From an uncultured Cellvibrio sp. (GTDB taxonomy: Bacteria > Pseudomonadota > Gammaproteobacteria > Pseudomonadales > Cellvibrionaceae): 64,000 bases of DNA. A program made the position numbers and the translations under genes. Positions 56,108-64,000 of this stretch are shown here, piece after piece. The stretch spans positions 62,001-126,000 of the forward strand of contig CAMLKG010000005.1 of assembly GCA_946480695.1 (NCBI GenBank), read 5' to 3'. Under the pieces are notes generated by a model. It saw only the letters and a list, made by a program, of their open reading frames with translations, made no database searches and had not been told where the DNA came from. Each line of letters begins with the position of its first letter. Position 1 is the first letter of the stretch.

Positions 56108-58468
56108 TTAATTGGCTGGGTCTGCAATGGCTTCGATATTACCGGGAGCAACCGAACCTACGGTTACGTTGCCATCATTCAGCACGAAGGTGACCACCTG
56201 GGCTTGCAGTTCGCCCGTTACCTGGGGTGCATCGCCCTCTGGCCTTAACAATGACGAATGGCCGCCGGCGGTAAGCTTCACATGGCCCTGGCCCAGTTGG
56301 GTTGTGCCCGGAACCAACGGTAATGCGCCAAGCAGGTTTGCCATAGCCTGGGTACCCATCAGCGGCGCACCCGCTGCCGCGTTGGGAATTACCGCATCAT
56401 TATTAATTTGTTGCACCAGGGTAGGCACACCCAAACCGGCGAGGGTTTCCATAAAGTTCACCGGATCACCGGAATCCATTGCGGTCTGCGCCGCGTAAAG
56501 GAAACGTTCGTAATTGGTAGTGCCCGGGTTCACGCCACTGTTACCCAAACCGCCATTAATGATGGGCGCAAAGGTTGCCGAGTTCACCAGCACCTGCGCA
56601 ACCTGGGTACCCGCCGCGCTGGTTACCAAACCGCGAATAGGCTTGAGGTTGGATGCAAGGCCCGCTTGCGCATCATTTGCAATCGCAACCTGGTTAACCG
56701 TGGTAAACACACTGCCCAGGATGCCACCCAATGAAACGCCGACAACATAAACGCGGTTTACATCCAGGCCGGTATTTAACGATTTGCGAATTTCAGTGTT
56801 TACCGCTTCCAGGCTCGCGTTCAGGTTCAGCAGGTCCATCACTGCCTGGCGGTTGTTATCGCGCGTATTCGGCAAATACCCGAGGTTGATAAATTGCGCG
56901 CCCGAGCCGTCGCTGCTGCCCGGCGCATCAAAATTCATGGGCGCGGGCGCTCCGCCGGAACCGGCAACATTGAAGTGGCGTTCGTGCGGCGCGTTAGCCC
57001 CGTAGAGGGTCGCAAAGGGAATGGATTGACTCTTTTCCACATTCAACGCATTAACAAAGGCGCTATTGGCGGGCACACCGTGTACCGGCAAATCTATGGC
57101 GACCGTGGCAATGCAGCGGCTTGCCAGGGTGTGGCCCAATGCGAGAACCGAAGTGCGATCGCTGGTAATACCATGGACGTAAATCACCACCGGATAGCCG
57201 GTCGCGGCGTAGATCTGCCCGCAATTGAAACTGCCGGCATAACCGGGTACCCAGTTATCCTGGGGCATGGTGACTTGCAGGGGCACAGATTCATCGCCGG
57301 TTTTTGCTGCAAACGGATAGCGATACGTGACGTTGTAACTACCATCCGCATCTGCCGGAATCGTTACCCCCATGGCTCCCGCCAGGGTAAGGTCCGGCTT
57401 CCAGTTGCGCCGCAGGTACTCACCAAATGCGAGGCCGGTGGCCGCAGTTTGGTAATAAGGCAACTTGATATAACCGGTGTAGAGCTTGCCCACATTGGCG
57501 GCGAGCGCCGGGCTAAAGGCATTAAAGTCGATACCGGTTAAACCGGAAATGCCCAGTTCACGTGCCTTGGGTGTGGGCAGTAAATTCAGGGAGTCGAGTT
57601 GTACCGCATTTGCAACCGCCGTTTGCGGTGCGGCTCCCGCCTGGATTTGGCTGCCGGCAATTGCCGCACGTGGTGCCGCCATGGCAACCAGGGGCGCCAA
57701 TGGGTCGGTAGTGGTGAAGGTGTAGGTCAGCACCAGCTTTTCCTTGGCCACCGCCGGTGTCAGTTGCCCGCCGCTGGCCGCCGCCAGGAATCCGCTGGCA
57801 ATGGTTTCCCAGCCGTTGATCGCGTTACGCACCGGCACCAGTGCCGTCAGGGTTTCATAGTCGGGGTCACGCAATGCGTTGTAGGTCCAGGAACGCGTCA
57901 GTGCGGCACCTGTCCCATCTTTTAAATCGTTGGTGAGGATTACGAGGTATTTGGCTTTGGGTTTCAGCGGCTTAAGGGGGCAGATACGCAAGGCATTGTT
58001 AGTGCCGCCATCCAGAGAAACGACTTGCACATCAAAATTAGCCAGGCCGGTCACGCCGACGATGTTGGCCGGATCGAGCGCATCCTTGCCGTTGGTATTC
58101 AGTTCCACCAGGAAAACACTTTGCCCCGCGATGGCGCTGGCAGGGTTCACGCTGCCGCTAATCAATACATCAAAGAACGCGGAGGTGGAAAAACCATCCA
58201 TTTGGTTCATGGTGGCGCGCACCGGGTCGGTAGGTGCACCCAGGTCGGCGGTGCCATCGGTTTCCCTGGCTTTGGCGAATATCAGGTCGGTATTGAAGGG
58301 AACATCGGACACAATGGGATCGAAACGCGGGTGTGTTCCCACCTGGTAGATATCCGGGCCCGTCGGCTCCGGCGCTTTTTCGGTATCGTCCCCGCCACCG
58401 CAGCCTTGCAAGGCCAGCATTGCGAGGGTCAATGAAGATAACAGGAACACATTCGATTTATTTTTCAT
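56108..58468 (-). CDS. VolA/Pla-1-like lipoprotein lipase
   Basis: 786-residue lipoprotein: signal peptide with lipobox LQGC (Cys23) followed by GGGDD. The N-terminal part matches the bacterial virulence-factor lipase N-terminal region (PRFDPIVSDVPFNTDLIFAK, then TDPVRATMNQMDGFSTSAFF). The C-terminal alpha/beta hydrolase has the oxyanion segment GYPVVIYVHGITSDRTSVLA, the nucleophile elbow VYVVGVSLGGILGSV and a late GGHSSLLRPEGDAPQ that would provide the His. Vibrio VolA is a surface-exposed lysophospholipase that feeds on lecithin; the same role is plausible here. Acidic residues after Cys fit outer-membrane retention. Confidence 0.88.
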   Translation of the reverse strand: MKNKSNVFLLSSLTLAMLALQGCGGGDDTEKAPEPTGPDIYQVGTHPRFDPIVSDVPFNTDLIFAKARETDGTADLGAPTDPVRATMNQMDGFSTSAFFDVLISGSVNPASAIAGQSVFLVELNTNGKDALDPANIVGVTGLANFDVQVVSLDGGTNNALRICPLKPLKPKAKYLVILTNDLKDGTGAALTRSWTYNALRDPDYETLTALVPVRNAINGWETIASGFLAAASGGQLTPAVAKEKLVLTYTFTTTDPLAPLVAMAAPRAAIAGSQIQAGAAPQTAVANAVQLDSLNLLPTPKARELGISGLTGIDFNAFSPALAANVGKLYTGYIKLPYYQTAATGLAFGEYLRRNWKPDLTLAGAMGVTIPADADGSYNVTYRYPFAAKTGDESVPLQVTMPQDNWVPGYAGSFNCGQIYAATGYPVVIYVHGITSDRTSVLALGHTLASRCIATVAIDLPVHGVPANSAFVNALNVEKSQSIPFATLYGANAPHERHFNVAGSGGAPAPMNFDAPGSSDGSGAQFINLGYLPNTRDNNRQAVMDLLNLNASLEAVNTEIRKSLNTGLDVNRVYVVGVSLGGILGSVFTTVNQVAIANDAQAGLASNLKPIRGLVTSAAGTQVAQVLVNSATFAPIINGGLGNSGVNPGTTNYERFLYAAQTAMDSGDPVNFMETLAGLGVPTLVQQINNDAVIPNAAAGAPLMGTQAMANLLGALPLVPGTTQLGQGHVKLTAGGHSSLLRPEGDAPQVTGELQAQVVTFVLNDGNVTVGSVAPGNIEAIADPAN

Positions 58469-58807: not shown

Positions 58808-60172
58808 GTGGCCATTCGTGTATGGGTATGCAATGTTGCCCACGCAAAAAACCTGGGTGAAAAAATTATTACCTGCCTGAACGAAAAGGGTATTGAAACC
58901 GAGCTGGTCAATAACCCGGCAAATACCGGCACCGGTATAGTGATCCTCACGGAATCAGTGTCTGAATTAATTACCCAATTGCAAAACAACTATCCGGTTT
59001 CCTCCCGCTATTTATTGGTTCTCCACAACGGCACCATGACACCCGAGCAAGCGCGGCAGCTAATGCGGGCCGGTGCCAGTGACATTTTGGCACTGGACAA
59101 TAATGCTCCTTGCGTTGATGAAATGATTGCGCGCATCCACCGCTGGGATGCGGTAGAAAACCTGGTGGGTGCACCCTATGTAAAACGCTGCCTGGTTGGC
59201 GAAAGCCCGGCCTGGAAAAATGTGCTGCGCCAATTGGTGGAAATTGCGCACTTTACCGATGCGTCCGTGTTAATCCAGGGGGAAAGCGGCACCGGCAAGG
59301 AATTGGTGGCCCGTTTAATCCATGAACTGGATGATCGCAAGCAAAAGAAGGAATTGGTTATCCTCGATTGCAGCACCATCACACCCGAATTGTCCGGCAG
59401 CGAATTTTTTGGCCACGAACGCGGTGCGTTTACCGGCGCCGTTTCCGCGCGCGACGGCGCTTTTGCACTTGCTGACCAGGGCACATTATTTCTCGACGAA
59501 ATCGGTGAATTGCCATTGCATTTGCAAACGCAGTTATTGCGCGTGATCCAGGAGCAAACCTTCAAGCGCGTGGGCGGCAACAGTTGGCAACACACCGCAT
59601 TCCGCCTGGTCTGCGCCACCAATCGGGACCTGTGGGCGCAAGTGCAAAAAGGTGAGTTCCGTGCGGACCTTTACTTTCGCCTGGCCAGCTTTATATGCGA
59701 CCTGCCGCCCCTGCGCGAACGCACCGAAGATGTGCTGCCGCTGGCCAGGCATTTCCTTAAAACCGCCTCGCCCCAGGGCAGTGACTATGGCCTCCAATTG
59801 GACCTCGCGGTCGAAGAATACCTGCTCAATCGCGACTACCCCGGCAATATCCGCGATTTACGCCAGGTGATAACACGGCTGTTGTGCCGCCACGCGGGAA
59901 AGGGGCTTATCACCCTGGGATGTATCCCCCCCGATGAGCGCGAAACCTGGTTCCGCCGGGACTCCGCCTGGCACCAGGGAAACTTTGAACTCGCCATTAA
60001 ACGCGGCTTGATGAACGGCGCGGGGCTTAAGGAGGTCAGTCGCATTGCAGAAGATATTGCGATCCGCATCGCGGTCGATGAAGCGGCCGGCAACCTGCAA
60101 CAGGCAGCCCAGCGCCTGGGGGTTACCGACCGCACCCTGCAACTGCGCCGCGCGGCGCGGCGGGAAGCCTAG
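58808..60172 (+). CDS. Sigma54-dependent activator with receiver-like N-terminus
   Basis: 454 residues. The N-terminal 120 residues look like a receiver fold (GIVILTESVSELITQLQNNY, MRAGASDILALDN) but lack the phosphoacceptor Asp. The AAA+ domain is intact: Walker A GESGTGKE (158-165), sigma54-contact loop GAFTGA (206-211), Walker B GTLFLDEIGELPLHLQTQLL. The C-terminal Fis-type helix-turn-helix is NLQQAAQRLGVTDRTLQLRR. GTG 58808 follows GGGAGG by 5 bases. It overlaps the stop of the convergent amidohydrolase gene by four bases and is a plausible regulator of that operon. Confidence 0.93.
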   Translation: MAIRVWVCNVAHAKNLGEKIITCLNEKGIETELVNNPANTGTGIVILTESVSELITQLQNNYPVSSRYLLVLHNGTMTPEQARQLMRAGASDILALDNNAPCVDEMIARIHRWDAVENLVGAPYVKRCLVGESPAWKNVLRQLVEIAHFTDASVLIQGESGTGKELVARLIHELDDRKQKKELVILDCSTITPELSGSEFFGHERGAFTGAVSARDGAFALADQGTLFLDEIGELPLHLQTQLLRVIQEQTFKRVGGNSWQHTAFRLVCATNRDLWAQVQKGEFRADLYFRLASFICDLPPLRERTEDVLPLARHFLKTASPQGSDYGLQLDLAVEEYLLNRDYPGNIRDLRQVITRLLCRHAGKGLITLGCIPPDERETWFRRDSAWHQGNFELAIKRGLMNGAGLKEVSRIAEDIAIRIAVDEAAGNLQQAAQRLGVTDRTLQLRRAARREA

Positions 60173-60948
60173 GCGACCAAACCGATACCGACCGGGTTGC
60201 GCACCGGCCTCGGCCCCGGTTGTTTTAATCCGGCTAACCGCAGGAAGTTCCCCCCCAGTACCAGGGCGCGATCCGCCGGGGATAATCCCATCACCTTTAT
60301 CTTTTCCAGTTCAACGCCCGGATGCAGCCAGGGGCCATCGGTGCCAAACAACAATTTTTGCGGACCACAGCGCTCGATCACCCGCATTAACAGGTCAAAA
60401 AAACGTACGCCCGAGGTATCGGTGTACAGGTTGGGATAGGCCTCAAGCCGTTTAAGGAATTCCGTTTGCGAGCGCCATTTTTCCGCAAAACTGGACAGGT
60501 GCGGCACAATAAAATTTAAATCGGGGTAGTCGCGCGCCAACCAATCCAATACTGTCAATTCGGTTTCGACATCGTAGAGGATGGGCACCCTGTATACCCG
60601 GGCCGCCTCGCAGATTTCACGGGTAATACGCGCATCGTGGCGATGCACTTTTACGCCCACGAAACCATAGTCTTCCACCGCCGTTTTTAGCATCGGCAAA
60701 ATCCGTCCCTTGTCGCGCTGCGCGTGCAGGTAACACAAGCCCATCAATCGCTGCGGGTAGCGGCGAACCCTATTTGCTACCGCATAATTGGCCATGGCGT
60801 AGTCATCGTGGAAATTGGCAAACACGACGCTATGGGTAATTCCCGCCGCTTGCGCCCGTTGCAGGTAACGCGCAAACAGGGATTCGCCGCTCCAGGGGTC
60901 CATCAAACCGAAACCGGCGATGCCGTGGCAATGGGAGTCAATGATCAT
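60169..60948 (-). CDS. Amidohydrolase-2 family metal-dependent hydrolase
   Basis: 259-residue TIM-barrel metalloenzyme. Metal-ligand motifs: IDSHCHGIAGF (HxH at 6 and 8), GVKVHRHDARI, NFIVPHLSSFAEKW and LFGTDGPWLHP (Asp). The family includes decarboxylases and lactonases acting on small carboxylates. It starts 2 bases after the stop of the GIY-YIG-like gene and is the last gene of the leftward operon. Substrate unknown. Ends with a basic, Gly/Pro-rich tail (QPGPRPVRNPVG). Confidence 0.85.
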   Translation of the reverse strand: MIIDSHCHGIAGFGLMDPWSGESLFARYLQRAQAAGITHSVVFANFHDDYAMANYAVANRVRRYPQRLMGLCYLHAQRDKGRILPMLKTAVEDYGFVGVKVHRHDARITREICEAARVYRVPILYDVETELTVLDWLARDYPDLNFIVPHLSSFAEKWRSQTEFLKRLEAYPNLYTDTSGVRFFDLLMRVIERCGPQKLLFGTDGPWLHPGVELEKIKVMGLSPADRALVLGGNFLRLAGLKQPGPRPVRNPVGIGLVA

Positions 60949-60950
60949 GG

Positions 60951-62159
60951 CTATACCCCCATCAATGCCAACTGGTTACCCCTACGTGACCAGCGCCCGG
61001 TGCGGTGGCGCGAACGGGCTTGCTTGCATCGGTTGCAGGAACAGGGAAGCGCGGGTTGCTCCAACCGGCACCGGCACGGGGCGGAACCGCAGCTTGCGCA
61101 TATGCTTGACGCGCGATTCCTACAGTTACAGGTATTTGCCTGGCAAGATTTGCTAGCGCACTTACCCGGGTTGCAGGCACCGCCAGGCTTGCCGGAGCAA
61201 CCGCATTTGCACACACGACTGGATGTGCATGAGCTTCCGGATTGACAGGAGCAGCGGCGGAAATCCGGCGCCGCAAATTCATAGGCAGTTCCCGCCGCCA
61301 ATGGCAAACGGTTTTGCGCAACCTGCTTGCGCACGCTGGCCAGCAAGGTAGAGCTGGTCGGGAGCACATTGTGGATTACCACCCTGGCGTTAACCGGTTG
61401 CGGCGGTACGGGCCGGCTGGCCGGTAAAGCGTATCCCTGGCGCCTGAGCAACCGGTCGAGCGCGCGCTCCACATAGCGATCCAGGCTGTAAAACCCACCG
61501 ATCTCCGCCATGTAAACCCGTAAATTCGTCCATTGACATCCCTTCGGCCACGCGTGGCCCGGCTTGAGGTAAGCGCCGAACCGGCTGCGGAATTCTTCCG
61601 CTATCCCGACCTTTAATACGCAATCTTTGACGCAGGTAGAACAACGGGCCGCGTTATTGCTGACATTGGCCGGTGCATCGCCAACCAGGATATACACACC
61701 GCCCTGGTTGGACCTTGCGGCGGCCAGCGCGTCCTTTATCGGAAACAGGTACCGGTCACCGGTGTGACCCGGGCGGGATAACCATTTGAGGCTGATATTC
61801 CGCTCGCCCATGTGCGCATGGCCGATTTCTTCATCCGCCTCAATCGCTCCCCCCGGTACCATTTGGCTATCCAATACCACCGGCTCGGTAGCAGGGCCGC
61901 CAGGTTCGGGAAAATCGGCGATGGGATAGCCGGGTTCGGGATAATCAGGTCCGGGGTCCGGATAGACAACCATATCCGGATAACGCCAGGCGCGCACGCG
62001 CGGTAGGGACCTCCGCCGTGGTCGGCGGTAGGAAACCAAGGGGCGCAACCGACGCGACGCAGCGGCACCGCGACGCCGCCGGACACGCAATTCCTCCGTT
62101 TCCCCACCCCACCCTGTTAACTCGTTTTCAGTTTCATCCATCGTGAATGTCTCGAACAT
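60951..62159 (-). CDS. GIY-YIG-like protein with cysteine-rich tail
   Basis: 402 residues, unusual composition. An acidic N-terminus (MFETFTMDETENELTG) is followed by an Arg-rich segment (RVRRRRGAAASRRLRPLVSY) and a Pro-rich segment (DPGPDYPEPGYPIADFPEPG). A GIY-YIG-like core spans about 150-240: GVY at 154-156, KVG at 183-185, Arg in RSRFGAYLKPG and Glu at 231, with an inserted CSTCVKDC. The tail (about 303-385) holds 18 cysteines in CSC, CKCGC, CNC and CRC arrangements and could bind metal. GGAGG precedes ATG 62159. I do not recognise the full-length family. Nuclease activity is inference. Confidence 0.72.
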   Translation of the reverse strand: MFETFTMDETENELTGWGGETEELRVRRRRGAAASRRLRPLVSYRRPRRRSLPRVRAWRYPDMVVYPDPGPDYPEPGYPIADFPEPGGPATEPVVLDSQMVPGGAIEADEEIGHAHMGERNISLKWLSRPGHTGDRYLFPIKDALAAARSNQGGVYILVGDAPANVSNNAARCSTCVKDCVLKVGIAEEFRSRFGAYLKPGHAWPKGCQWTNLRVYMAEIGGFYSLDRYVERALDRLLRRQGYALPASRPVPPQPVNARVVIHNVLPTSSTLLASVRKQVAQNRLPLAAGTAYEFAAPDFRRCSCQSGSSCTSSRVCKCGCSGKPGGACNPGKCASKSCQANTCNCRNRASSICASCGSAPCRCRLEQPALPCSCNRCKQARSRHRTGRWSRRGNQLALMGV

Positions 62160-62190
62160 GATCCACCTCCAGGTGTAGTGCGAATTTGCG

Positions 62191-63282
62191 TTACTGGAAT
62201 ATCCTCCCCACGCCGATTCGGCTGCGCCGAATCACAGCATCCAACTGTTCCAGGCAAAGGTCGATGTCGTATTCCCTGTGCCGCGCGGTGATCACCAGGC
62301 CGAGCCGCAAACGCGGATCTTTGCGCGCATTTAGCAACAAGGTTTTAACACCGCGCGCCAATAAGGCCTGGTGCAGGCTCGCGGCGGACAGAGCCGCTAT
62401 TGGCCGCAAGGTTTGCAGCGGGAACAAACCGCCTTCCGCGCTAAACCCCAGGGTTGCCAGGCCCTGTCGGAGCCGGTGCAGGTTCGCCAGCAAACCGCTG
62501 CGCAACCGGTCCCCTTCCTGTTCGTTAACCACCAGCGCCCGGTCGGCACTTTGGATCACCGCAACGGAAGGCGGGCTGCAATGGACCCGGCTCAGACTGC
62601 GCAACCGGAAACGCTGCAACATTGCGCTGCTGCCTGAAAAAACCGCCATAGGCACCCCGAATGACTTGGCAAGTGAAGCCCCGCACAAGATGTCCGGCCC
62701 CGCCAGGCCCAGGAACCGTAACGAACCGCCGCCACCGCTGCCGTAGGGTGCGGCCTGGTTCGGTCCCGAACCCAACAACCCCAGTCCCTGGGTGTCATCC
62801 ACCAGCAATAAGCCACCGAAGTGGCGAACCGCTTCCAGGTAATCACCCAGCGGGGCGAGCCGACCGGTGCCGGGGCATAACCCATCCGCCACCACCAGTG
62901 GCCGCAATCCATTGCGCACCCGGCTGGCCAGCAGCCGTCGCAGGTGCCGTGGGTCGTGGCCGTCAAACGCCACCAGCGGCACACCCCGCCCGGCCATGCG
63001 TTCAGCGCCCCAGCGGGCAATGGGATAACTGGCGCTGTCCAAAAAGATGGCTGTCCGCGCGCTGCCAAAGGTTTCAAATACATCAAAAAACAAATGCAAG
63101 GTGGAGGGTAAGAGCACGGCTTCATCCGCTCCCTGTAGCCGTGCCAGCTTACCGGCCAGTTGCTCCGCGCCCGGCGGGTTCGCCATCATCGCCGGTTTTC
63201 CCAGCGTTAATTGGCCCCAGCCCGGCAGGGATTGGCTTGCATGGGTCAGGCCCAGGTAAAGTGCCGAGGTAAAGTCAGGCAT
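62191..63282 (-). CDS. AONS/KBL-like PLP-dependent enzyme
   Basis: 363 residues of the fold-type I alpha-oxoamine synthase group (BioF, Kbl, HemA-like), which condense an amino acid with an acyl thioester. Lys206 in CGASLAKSFG is the probable Schiff-base lysine; D162 in VDDTQGLGLLG matches the conserved Asp that contacts PLP, but Gln165 replaces the His of DDAHG. N-terminal LTLGKPAMMANPPGAEQLAG is family-like. AAGGGGGG precedes the ATG. The biotin genes are absent around it, so it probably acts in another pathway encoded by this operon. Confidence 0.85.
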   Translation of the reverse strand: MPDFTSALYLGLTHASQSLPGWGQLTLGKPAMMANPPGAEQLAGKLARLQGADEAVLLPSTLHLFFDVFETFGSARTAIFLDSASYPIARWGAERMAGRGVPLVAFDGHDPRHLRRLLASRVRNGLRPLVVADGLCPGTGRLAPLGDYLEAVRHFGGLLLVDDTQGLGLLGSGPNQAAPYGSGGGGSLRFLGLAGPDILCGASLAKSFGVPMAVFSGSSAMLQRFRLRSLSRVHCSPPSVAVIQSADRALVVNEQEGDRLRSGLLANLHRLRQGLATLGFSAEGGLFPLQTLRPIAALSAASLHQALLARGVKTLLLNARKDPRLRLGLVITARHREYDIDLCLEQLDAVIRRSRIGVGRIFQ

Positions 63283-63294
63283 ACACGCCCCCCT

Positions 63295-64000
63295 TCAACG
63301 GGGAGCGTGTTGCATCGCCAAACGTTTGCGCAACAGCACCGAGGGCATGGTGTAGTCCACGCCATCGCTGGTACTCAGGTCCACCCCGGTTACCGCGCGG
63401 TAGGCGTGGATGTAACTCTGGATGTAAGGCCTCATCAAATCCGCCCAACCTTTGGCTTCATCTTCATTGGTCACTTCGTACCAGTTGTGCCAACGGATGG
63501 TTAGCAAAATCTGCTCGCCTAATACGCCCAGGTCGCGGAAATGGGTCACTGCCACATCGGACCAACCTTGCAAGGTTTTCATGGTATCCACCTGCGGCAT
63601 CCAGGCTTCCTTGTGGGGAACCATCACCCGGCTTTGCAAGAAGTCGCGAATTTCAGGGCGCGAAAGAATCCATTCCTGCATCAACATTTCCACCCTCGAT
63701 GTCCAGGCCAGGTCACCAAACTGGTTATGCGCTCCCTGGGCGAGGATCAGGTTCAGCTCCTGGATCGCATGCAACATGGGGTAACCATCCGGGTCCACAG
63801 TGGTGTCCTGCTTGGCCCGGAAATAATCCGCACATTTATTTAGCAAGTTGTGGAACGCCTCCAGGAATTTGGAGCGCGTATCCGCCGGGCGCAAATTGGA
63901 AACCGCCTTGCCGTAAAGCTCCAACCCGTATTGGTGTTGGTACTCATACGCGCGGCGCTTGATGGAAAGGCGATCCCGTTCCTCTTCCACATAACCCCAG
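63295..64000 (-). CDS. Helical protein of unknown family, 5' end outside the window
   Basis: At least 235 residues; the frame continues beyond 64000, so the true start is unseen (WGYVEEERDRLSIKRRAYEY reads in from the edge). It is rich in aromatic and charged residues with long predicted helices (LEAFHNLLNKCADYFRAK, VEMLMQEWILSRPEIRDFLQ, LGEQILLTIRWHNWYEV, GWADLMRPYIQSYIHAYRAV) and no signal peptide, cysteine cluster or catalytic motif I know. Its stop lies 12 bases before the PLP-enzyme start, so it is an upstream operon member. Confidence 0.7.
   Translation of the reverse strand, partial: WGYVEEERDRLSIKRRAYEYQHQYGLELYGKAVSNLRPADTRSKFLEAFHNLLNKCADYFRAKQDTTVDPDGYPMLHAIQELNLILAQGAHNQFGDLAWTSRVEMLMQEWILSRPEIRDFLQSRVMVPHKEAWMPQVDTMKTLQGWSDVAVTHFRDLGVLGEQILLTIRWHNWYEVTNEDEAKGWADLMRPYIQSYIHAYRAVTGVDLSTSDGVDYTMPSVLLRKRLAMQHAPR

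Follow-up and report, generated by a model that had tools for sequence, protein, structure and literature searches.

What is the tightly packed group of genes that runs off the right-hand edge of a 64,000-nucleotide stretch of DNA (the window) from an uncultured Cellvibrio sp. (GCA_946480695.1, contig CAMLKG010000005.1, positions 62,001 to 126,000), and what might it do? An earlier note, made from the sequence alone, saw four leftward genes converging with a sigma54-type activator and proposed a small-molecule or metal-linked stress system. Comparison with relatives leaves hardly any doubt that a coherent, dedicated and transferred system exists. Read across these relatives, it is an operon with the order ERP–ERP–MPR–HEL–BIO–cargo slot–AMH and a convergent gene, SIG, downstream, and the window is the downstream part of it. 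The ERPs are Glu-rich proteins and MPR is an HExxH protein; the genes that lie in the window, with lengths in amino acids (aa), are the following.

58808..60172, + strand: SIG, sigma54-type enhancer-binding protein (454 aa; Pfam Sigma54_activat, 1.2e-59)
60169..60948, − strand: AMH, Amidohydro_2 (PF04909) family hydrolase (259 aa; Pfam, 6.2e-21)
60951..62159, − strand: cargo-slot protein, called the window cargo below (402 aa; no Pfam match)
61260..61775, − strand: GIY-YIG-like domain of the window cargo (GGVY ... LKVGIAEEFRSRF ... E), from profile–profile comparison
60954..61001, − strand: C-terminal tag TGRWSRRGNQLALMGV of the window cargo, resembling the tag of the Glu-rich ERP proteins
62191..63282, − strand: BIO, pyridoxal phosphate (PLP) enzyme with an alpha-oxoamine synthase fold (363 aa; Pfam Aminotran_1_2, 1.9e-10)
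63295..64000, − strand: HEL, C-terminal third of a protein of about 690 aa that runs past the window edge (nothing above the Pfam cut-off)

The five open reading frames (ORFs), their strands, the gaps of 12, 31 and 2 bases between the leftward genes and the 4-base convergent overlap of SIG and AMH were all reproduced as first described, and the Pfam matches agree with the earlier calls of an amidohydrolase and a sigma54-type activator. The operon also extends past the window as had been supposed, since the edge ORF (63295-63999) is open and HEL has about 690 aa in relatives. The 231-residue protein that had been taken as a whole gene is a GTG-started ORF covering only the C-terminal third of HEL: the edge ORF aligns with the last third of proteins of 684 and 724 aa and is 96.6% identical over 234 aa to a 689-aa protein of Cellvibrio sp. 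79 (locus L003), the closest record met. The operon start lies past the window edge, and the promoter, the enhancer and the upstream genes were read in relatives.

Do these genes belong together? A tblastn search of plasmids with BIO returned loci of Rhizobium and Ensifer with the same neighbours. Scanning genomes for the C-terminal part of HEL gave 182 relatives, and the best 80 of these were clustered with the window and the two plasmid loci (83 sequences, all-against-all BLASTP); the same kind of scan with the BIO of the window as query confirmed no relative. ORF clusters were found for HEL in 83 sequences, MPR in 80, ERP in 78, SIG in 70, BIO in 70 and AMH in 61, the next cluster reaching 23. 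The ERP cluster (186 ORFs) is impure, BLAST linkage having pulled in slot proteins; 112 of its members, spread over 71 loci, are upstream of MPR. SIG is convergent and downstream in 69 of 70 cases, and the order of the genes is nearly constant. Since many contigs break inside the operon, the genes were recounted by tblastn in 83 loci (L001-L082 and L104), 62 of which are full, in that HEL has no less than 4.5 kb on its left and 6.5 kb on its right. HEL, MPR, SIG and an ERP upstream of MPR are each present in 62 of the 62 full loci, BIO in 57 and AMH in 54, with all six in 51; the HEL count holds by construction, the loci having been picked by HEL, except L104, which was picked by MPR. Used as an independent anchor, MPR found four plasmid records of high similarity (two of Rhizobium, one of Ensifer and pBPHY01 of Paraburkholderia phymatum STM815), a fifth match being distant. 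The P. phymatum locus (L104) has ERP, MPR, HEL, AMH and SIG, and no recognized BIO.

This is strong recurrent linkage in unrelated genomes of at least three of the five genes, which the earlier note had named as support for a system. The activator is part of it: it is present in every full locus, and most of the loci examined have a sigma54 promoter and an enhancer pair at the operon start. The statement that no described pathway is known to have this combination also stood: the extended operon matched no named pathway in library and literature searches. The open-access literature, searched by motif, by gene combination and by enhancer sequence, yielded nothing on the operon, one search bringing up papers on other systems; subscription journals lie outside the scope. 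As for papers on P. phymatum, a legume symbiont, a term search of PMC5748707 with guessed locus-tag beginnings gave no match, and three passages of PMC5979394, the paper with a published rpoN mutant of this species, concern other matters than the operon locus.

How would such a system be switched on? SIG carries a GESGTGKE Walker A motif, a GAFTGA loop, a C-terminal HTH_8 domain just below the cut-off and a divergent N-terminal region of about 115 aa. The GAFTGA motif is exact in 63 of the 70 SIG ORFs, takes near variants in six and is missing from one short ORF; against NCBIfam, SIG stays under the cut-off in the best 25 of 33 matches. Promoter and enhancer were examined at 68 loci, 15 of the 83 being left out (no upstream ERP, a contig end too near, or the window itself). 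A −24/−12 element, defined as GG-N10-GC with at least six of seven further consensus positions upstream of the first ERP, occurs at 53 of the 68 loci, compared with 29 of 2044 background windows (1.4%); with seven of seven positions, it occurs at 27 loci and in one background window. The palindrome CGAA-N6-TTCG is found at 61 of the 68 loci (51 of 2044 background windows) and, as a pair in which one site may carry a mismatch, at 64 (9 of 1305 control windows). The centres of the paired sites are 42 bp apart in 57 loci, 41 bp in five, 43 bp in one and 32 bp in one, about 42 bp being four turns of DNA. Measured at 55 loci, the distances that separate enhancer and −24 element largely form groups near 40, 50, 63, 105, 120 and 131 bp, and 22 of the 55 are of 38-42 bp. 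Of 15 whole genomes, 13 carry an exact pair at the operon, with a total length of 55-56 bp (47 bp in Streptomyces), and none was found at the operon in G002 and G016. Six further pairs occur elsewhere in the 15 genomes, one only with an operon-like length: a second pair of 55 bp in Nitrospira, off the operon (G006:C86:545-599; L086), with no system gene recognized among the adjoining ORFs listed. Because of the promoter, the paired enhancer and the GAFTGA loop taken together, SIG is very probably the dedicated activator of the operon. Like the sigma54 enhancer-binding proteins of the NtrC, RtcR and PspF types, it combines an AAA+ domain and a GAFTGA loop with tandem upstream palindromes and a −24/−12 promoter; unlike them, it is associated with an enhancer of its own, CGAA-N6-TTCG, at a spacing of about 42 bp.

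The proteins that are always present have few known relatives. The ERPs, mostly of about 190–400 aa, are Glu-rich Gly-zipper proteins with an acidic N-terminus, and their C-terminal tag is found in 101 of the 112 upstream ERPs, 29 of 137 slot ORFs, four of 727 outside ORFs and none of 361 core ORFs. Weak matches of ERPs to Gly-zipper_Omp and HlyE (below cut-off) and to phrog_29560 (0.0085), as well as a match of the tandem-ERP relative P0148 above the cut-off of Pfam TRI4_N (33.1 versus 27.8 bits), were taken as composition-driven, and the ERP profile gave chance-level rows only against the PDB. Several ERP relatives of about 400 aa (P0133, P0135, P0148 and P0193) consist of two tandem ERP units with a single tag, and some are labelled ‘DUF697 family’ in one source. 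In MPR, H207, E208, H211, E250 and D254 are invariant in 42 sequences and the Ala of the ExxAD-like motif is not. An HExxH motif with a downstream Glu in an ExxAD-like motif presumably marks M48 zinc peptidases, and MPR is, by motif, a putative M48-like zinc peptidase. For the members of MPR and HEL tested, there is no Pfam, NCBIfam, PADLOC, PHROG or PDB match, their profiles find nothing in the PDB up to an E-value of 1, and Foldseek gives no match of their models to the PDB at E ≤ 0.001. VIA-align returned no convincing whole-fold match for either, families outside its listing not being thereby excluded; the predicted model of HEL is weak (mean predicted local distance difference test score of 60). 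Moreover, PADLOC anti-phage models recognized no system among ten proteins scanned, with a partial match in one slot protein only (PDC-S14, 1.3e-4). HEL, MPR and ERP, families without a name, have at least 2838 (HEL) and 3748 (ERP) homologues and can now be tested together as a single system whose promoter, enhancer and regulator are defined.

The variable part of the operon lies between BIO and AMH, where 53 of the 54 loci with both genes have one to four ORFs (a single one in 19 of the 54). Of the 143 slot ORFs, 30 were compared with Pfam; their choice favoured diversity and does not estimate frequency. PG_binding_1 is above the cut-off in 14 and a wall-cleaving domain (Amidase_2, Muramidase, Glucosaminidase, VanY or Peptidase_M74) in ten, 18 having one or the other. 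Other domains are trypsin-like (three), OmpA (three), M20 (one) and GIY-YIG (one, plus four below the cut-off); four of the 30 have no Pfam match at E ≤ 0.01. Four further operon ORFs gave VanY in an 865-aa Streptomyces protein, PG_binding_1 in L009 and no match in L050 and L076. The slot offers a collection of candidate nucleases and wall hydrolases. Its content turns over quickly: the median share of slot ORFs that are unmatched between loci is 0 at an MPR identity of at least 85%, half at 70-85% and 1.00 at 60-70%, and in this last range the median identities of SIG, BIO, AMH and ERP stay at 52, 47, 70 and 47%. Between the window and Cellvibrio sp. 79, beside the near-identical HEL, AMH is 84%, SIG 70%, BIO 61% and the cargo 43.6% identical. 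The ERP core is present in 42 of 137 slot ORFs, in some joined to wall-binding, amidase or GIY-YIG-like parts (L023:11868-14252, L017:11870-13369 and L018:11752-12858). Many of the slot proteins with an ERP core also bear the tag, as does the lineage of the window cargo.

The window cargo comprises an arginine-rich and acidic N-terminus, a GIY-YIG-like domain, a cysteine-rich segment and an ERP-type C-terminal tag, its residues 354-402 matching the end of the ERP profile (E-value of 2.1e-4 in a search of 138 ORFs). Twelve database proteins are its relatives, and eight of them have a peptidoglycan-binding domain; in these eight (P0005-P0012) and in L003:11838-13115 this domain stands where the window cargo has a Pro-rich linker, which suggests that close relatives differ by the loss or swap of a domain. 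Whole cargo alignments compared by hhalign returned the peptidoglycan-binding part only. The comparison of the window cargo with 13 GIY-YIG-like slot proteins gave a profile–profile E-value of 2.6e-4 at a probability of 42% (0.1-0.54 for five column-shuffled controls), and one of the proteins aligned to it, from L002, passes the Pfam GIY-YIG cut-off. The window cargo lineage has no match to GIY-YIG in Pfam, PHROG or the PDB. The cysteine-rich GIY-YIG-like protein is the version of the exchangeable slot found in this lineage, and cysteine-rich cargo is not general among slot proteins.

What, then, might the operon do? Our tentative preference, to which we give slightly less than an even chance, is that the genes seen here are the downstream end of a mobile operon in which a fixed chassis and exchangeable cargo, under a sigma54 switch of their own, serve to make effectors. 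The effector reading is the most economical because the constant peptidase-like MPR and HEL occur with tagged ERPs and exchangeable lytic domains. A signal would free SIG, which would bind the enhancer pair and open the sigma54 promoter, so that ERPs, chassis and slot proteins would be made together as a unit. The ERPs would be handled, perhaps trimmed or assembled via their tag, by the zinc-peptidase-like MPR with HEL. Slot proteins and ERPs, some of the former fused to the ERP core or tag and most not, would act as effectors on the envelopes or contents of other cells, and BIO and AMH would be common yet optional tailoring enzymes. Several results weigh against this proposal: most slot proteins have no N-terminus resembling a signal peptide and no export signal was seen, no immunity gene is evident in the operon, and the tag did not hold as a general mark of cargo, most slot proteins being untagged. 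Moreover, no secretion or immunity family was found in the six core clusters or in ten of the 11 next most shared clusters around the operon (a decarboxylase, dihydrofolate reductase, a two-component pair, a dCTP deaminase-like protein and others), single loci not having been searched individually for transporters.

The same features would suit programmed self-lysis or release, in which stress would lead membrane-active ERPs and signal-less wall hydrolases, nucleases and proteases to destroy or open the producer in the manner of a phage holin and endolysin. Signal-peptide-like N-termini are missing from most slot proteins, endolysin-like domains occur among them, no immunity gene is evident, and ERP matches, searched for as a dispersed regulon, fall on a single contig, within some 8 kb, in all 16 genomes. 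However, a holin-like or strongly membrane-spanning ERP found no support in the hydropathy test, fast turnover of the slot is not expected of a self-lysis tool, and no phage copy was found (MPR in none of 50,697 phage records, HEL confirmed in none of 66 pattern matches in IMG/VR); we consider this explanation unlikely. Equally improbable in our judgement is the building of an envelope or extracellular structure, which would be assembled from ERPs, HEL (with its N-terminal transthyretin/Ig-like domain) and peptidoglycan-binding slot proteins while the hydrolases remodelled the wall for insertion; GIY-YIG-like and trypsin-like slot proteins are ill-suited to such work, to which the lack of an export signal is again unfavourable.

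The remaining possibility starts from BIO and AMH. In AMH, H6, H8, K100, H102, H150 and D204, which we take to be metal-site residues, are invariant in 18 aligned sequences. BIO had been described as AONS/KBL-like (AONS, 8-amino-7-oxononanoate synthase), and the fold holds, with a profile match to 1bs0 at 1.2e-34, as do the PLP lysine (Lys206) and Asp162. What did not hold is the likeness at His133 and His207 of Escherichia coli AONS, presumably active-site residues, which are replaced by Tyr86 and Gln165; Tyr and Gln occupy the two sites in 19 aligned sequences, with Leu at the second site in L114. BIO scores 60.5 bits against the BioF equivalog, the cut-off of which is 426, and does not qualify as an 8-amino-7-oxononanoate synthase. 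It thus shares fold, PLP lysine and aspartate with the alpha-oxoamine synthases (BioF, KBL, CqsA and SPT) but lacks both AONS histidines and the N-terminal 40 or so residues. BIO and AMH are the dispensable parts, not found in five and eight of the 62 full loci, respectively. The stress system of the earlier note, in which BIO would make an acyl-amino-ketone, AMH would hydrolyse it and the cysteine-rich protein would bind metal, is therefore very improbable despite the synthase-like fold and the conserved His/Asp/Lys set, as ERP, MPR, HEL and SIG are always present where BIO or AMH is missing, BIO lacks the two histidines, and the cysteine-rich protein is one variant of the slot.

The effector reading can be set against known systems. 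Polymorphic toxin and effector systems combine a constant chassis with rapidly exchanged domains that cut the wall, nucleic acid or protein. The operon resembles them in both respects, but no recognized trafficking domain, immunity gene or secretion apparatus was found in it. The nearest idea, from the passages of PMC5380434 that describe it, is the Cdz system of Caulobacter (CdzABCDI), which is likewise sporadic and transferred in its distribution, toxin-like in its logic and has at least two glycine-zipper proteins per locus. Compared with Cdz, the operon has ERPs mostly of about 190–400 aa with an acidic N-terminus, sigma54 control, extra enzymes and slot proteins, and the type I secretion and immunity genes linked to the zipper genes in Cdz were not found in the operon clusters scanned. 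In PMC7159879, a zincin is linked to FxSxx-COOH proteins, that is, a zinc peptidase to proteins with a short conserved C-terminus, in peptide processing; here the proteins and the C-terminus differ, HEL, SIG and the cargo slot are added, and cleavage is putative.

How has the operon spread? It is rare (two of 298 other genomes of the phylum of Cellvibrio), and 11 labels at phylum level, some of them single metagenome-assembled genomes, appear on the HEL tree. On this tree Pseudomonadota needs at least six changes, and methanotroph gammaproteobacteria are nested within Nitrosomonas. Horizontal transfer is likely from this topology, more than one change being, for the tree tool, no proof of it.

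The operon also occurs in Actinomycetota. This phylum lacks sigma54 according to PMC3162934 and PMC12316311, the latter counting four in 173, of which one was misclassified and the other three had no convincing domains. A sigma54-type gene nevertheless adjoins the operon in the three Actinomycetota genomes found with it (L067, L113/G1125 and L114), two of which came, besides the Streptomyces one, from an ERP-profile search of 394 genomes of the class; the sigma54 DNA-binding domain (DBD) was found in none of 20 listed genomes without the operon. At the Streptomyces locus the sigma54 gene, the enhancer pair, the perfect promoter TGGCACGGAACTTGCA and the ERP start follow in a row. The L067 sigma54 has AID, CBD and DBD all above the Pfam cut-offs. 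Among 246 sampled Streptomyces, Sigma54_DBD is matched at E ≤ 0.001 in four and above the cut-off in three, and it is nearly full-length only in the operon-bearing G013 (5-158 of 160, E-value of 1.5e-29; 6.7e-5 to 8.6e-4 in the others). In L114 a sigma54-type gene accompanies two ERPs, MPR, HEL, BIO, AMH and SIG in standard order; this divergent sigma54 matches the rpoN model over nearly the full length, its 158.6 bits being below the equivalog cut-off of 277. L113 has ERP, MPR, HEL, SIG and two promoters, and lacks an exact enhancer site nearby; its MPR lies beyond the sigma54-type gene, which was recognized by its DBD.

We may wonder whether the operon brought its own sigma factor. It is possible, if rather doubtful, that the operon is a novel type of mobile weapon or self-destruct device, the sigma54-switched chassis of which (ERP, MPR, HEL and SIG) matures tagged ERPs and deploys exchangeable effectors together with these or attached to them, without a known secretion apparatus, and that it carried sigma54 into Actinomycetota; if true, it would account for the sigma54 genes of otherwise sigma54-less lineages of this phylum. 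Against the wider claim on sigma54, 18 of 396 Actinomycetota genomes are above the PF04552 cut-off, G013 included, the other 17 being of 1.2 to 4.0 Mb; the statement that Actinomycetota lack sigma54 is thus too strong as a blanket one, and the operon comparison did not take in these 17. The three genomes give an example in which an alternative sigma factor sits beside its evident client operon, in a phylum reported without it (PMC12316311 and PMC3162934).

Finally, some neighbours and distant relatives should be mentioned. In the window, SIG adjoins a 786-aa lipoprotein-like protein (56108-58468) that is syntenic in Cellvibrio sp. 79 (85% identity), where the genes flanking the operon are 85 and 88% identical to those of the window. 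In some Rhizobiales-type loci a divergent gene lies directly upstream of the operon (cluster c27 in L001, L046 and L048, and a gene of L069); the one in L069 (G014:C33:89827-90294) weakly matches the ERP profile. Three Streptomyces genomes (G824, G774 and G765), which have no Sigma54_DBD match among those listed for the 246 Streptomyces, contain distant relatives of MPR (L097, L098 and L099; E-values of 1.4e-35 to 6.9e-33) in a different gene arrangement, which suggests that the MPR family is wider than the operon.

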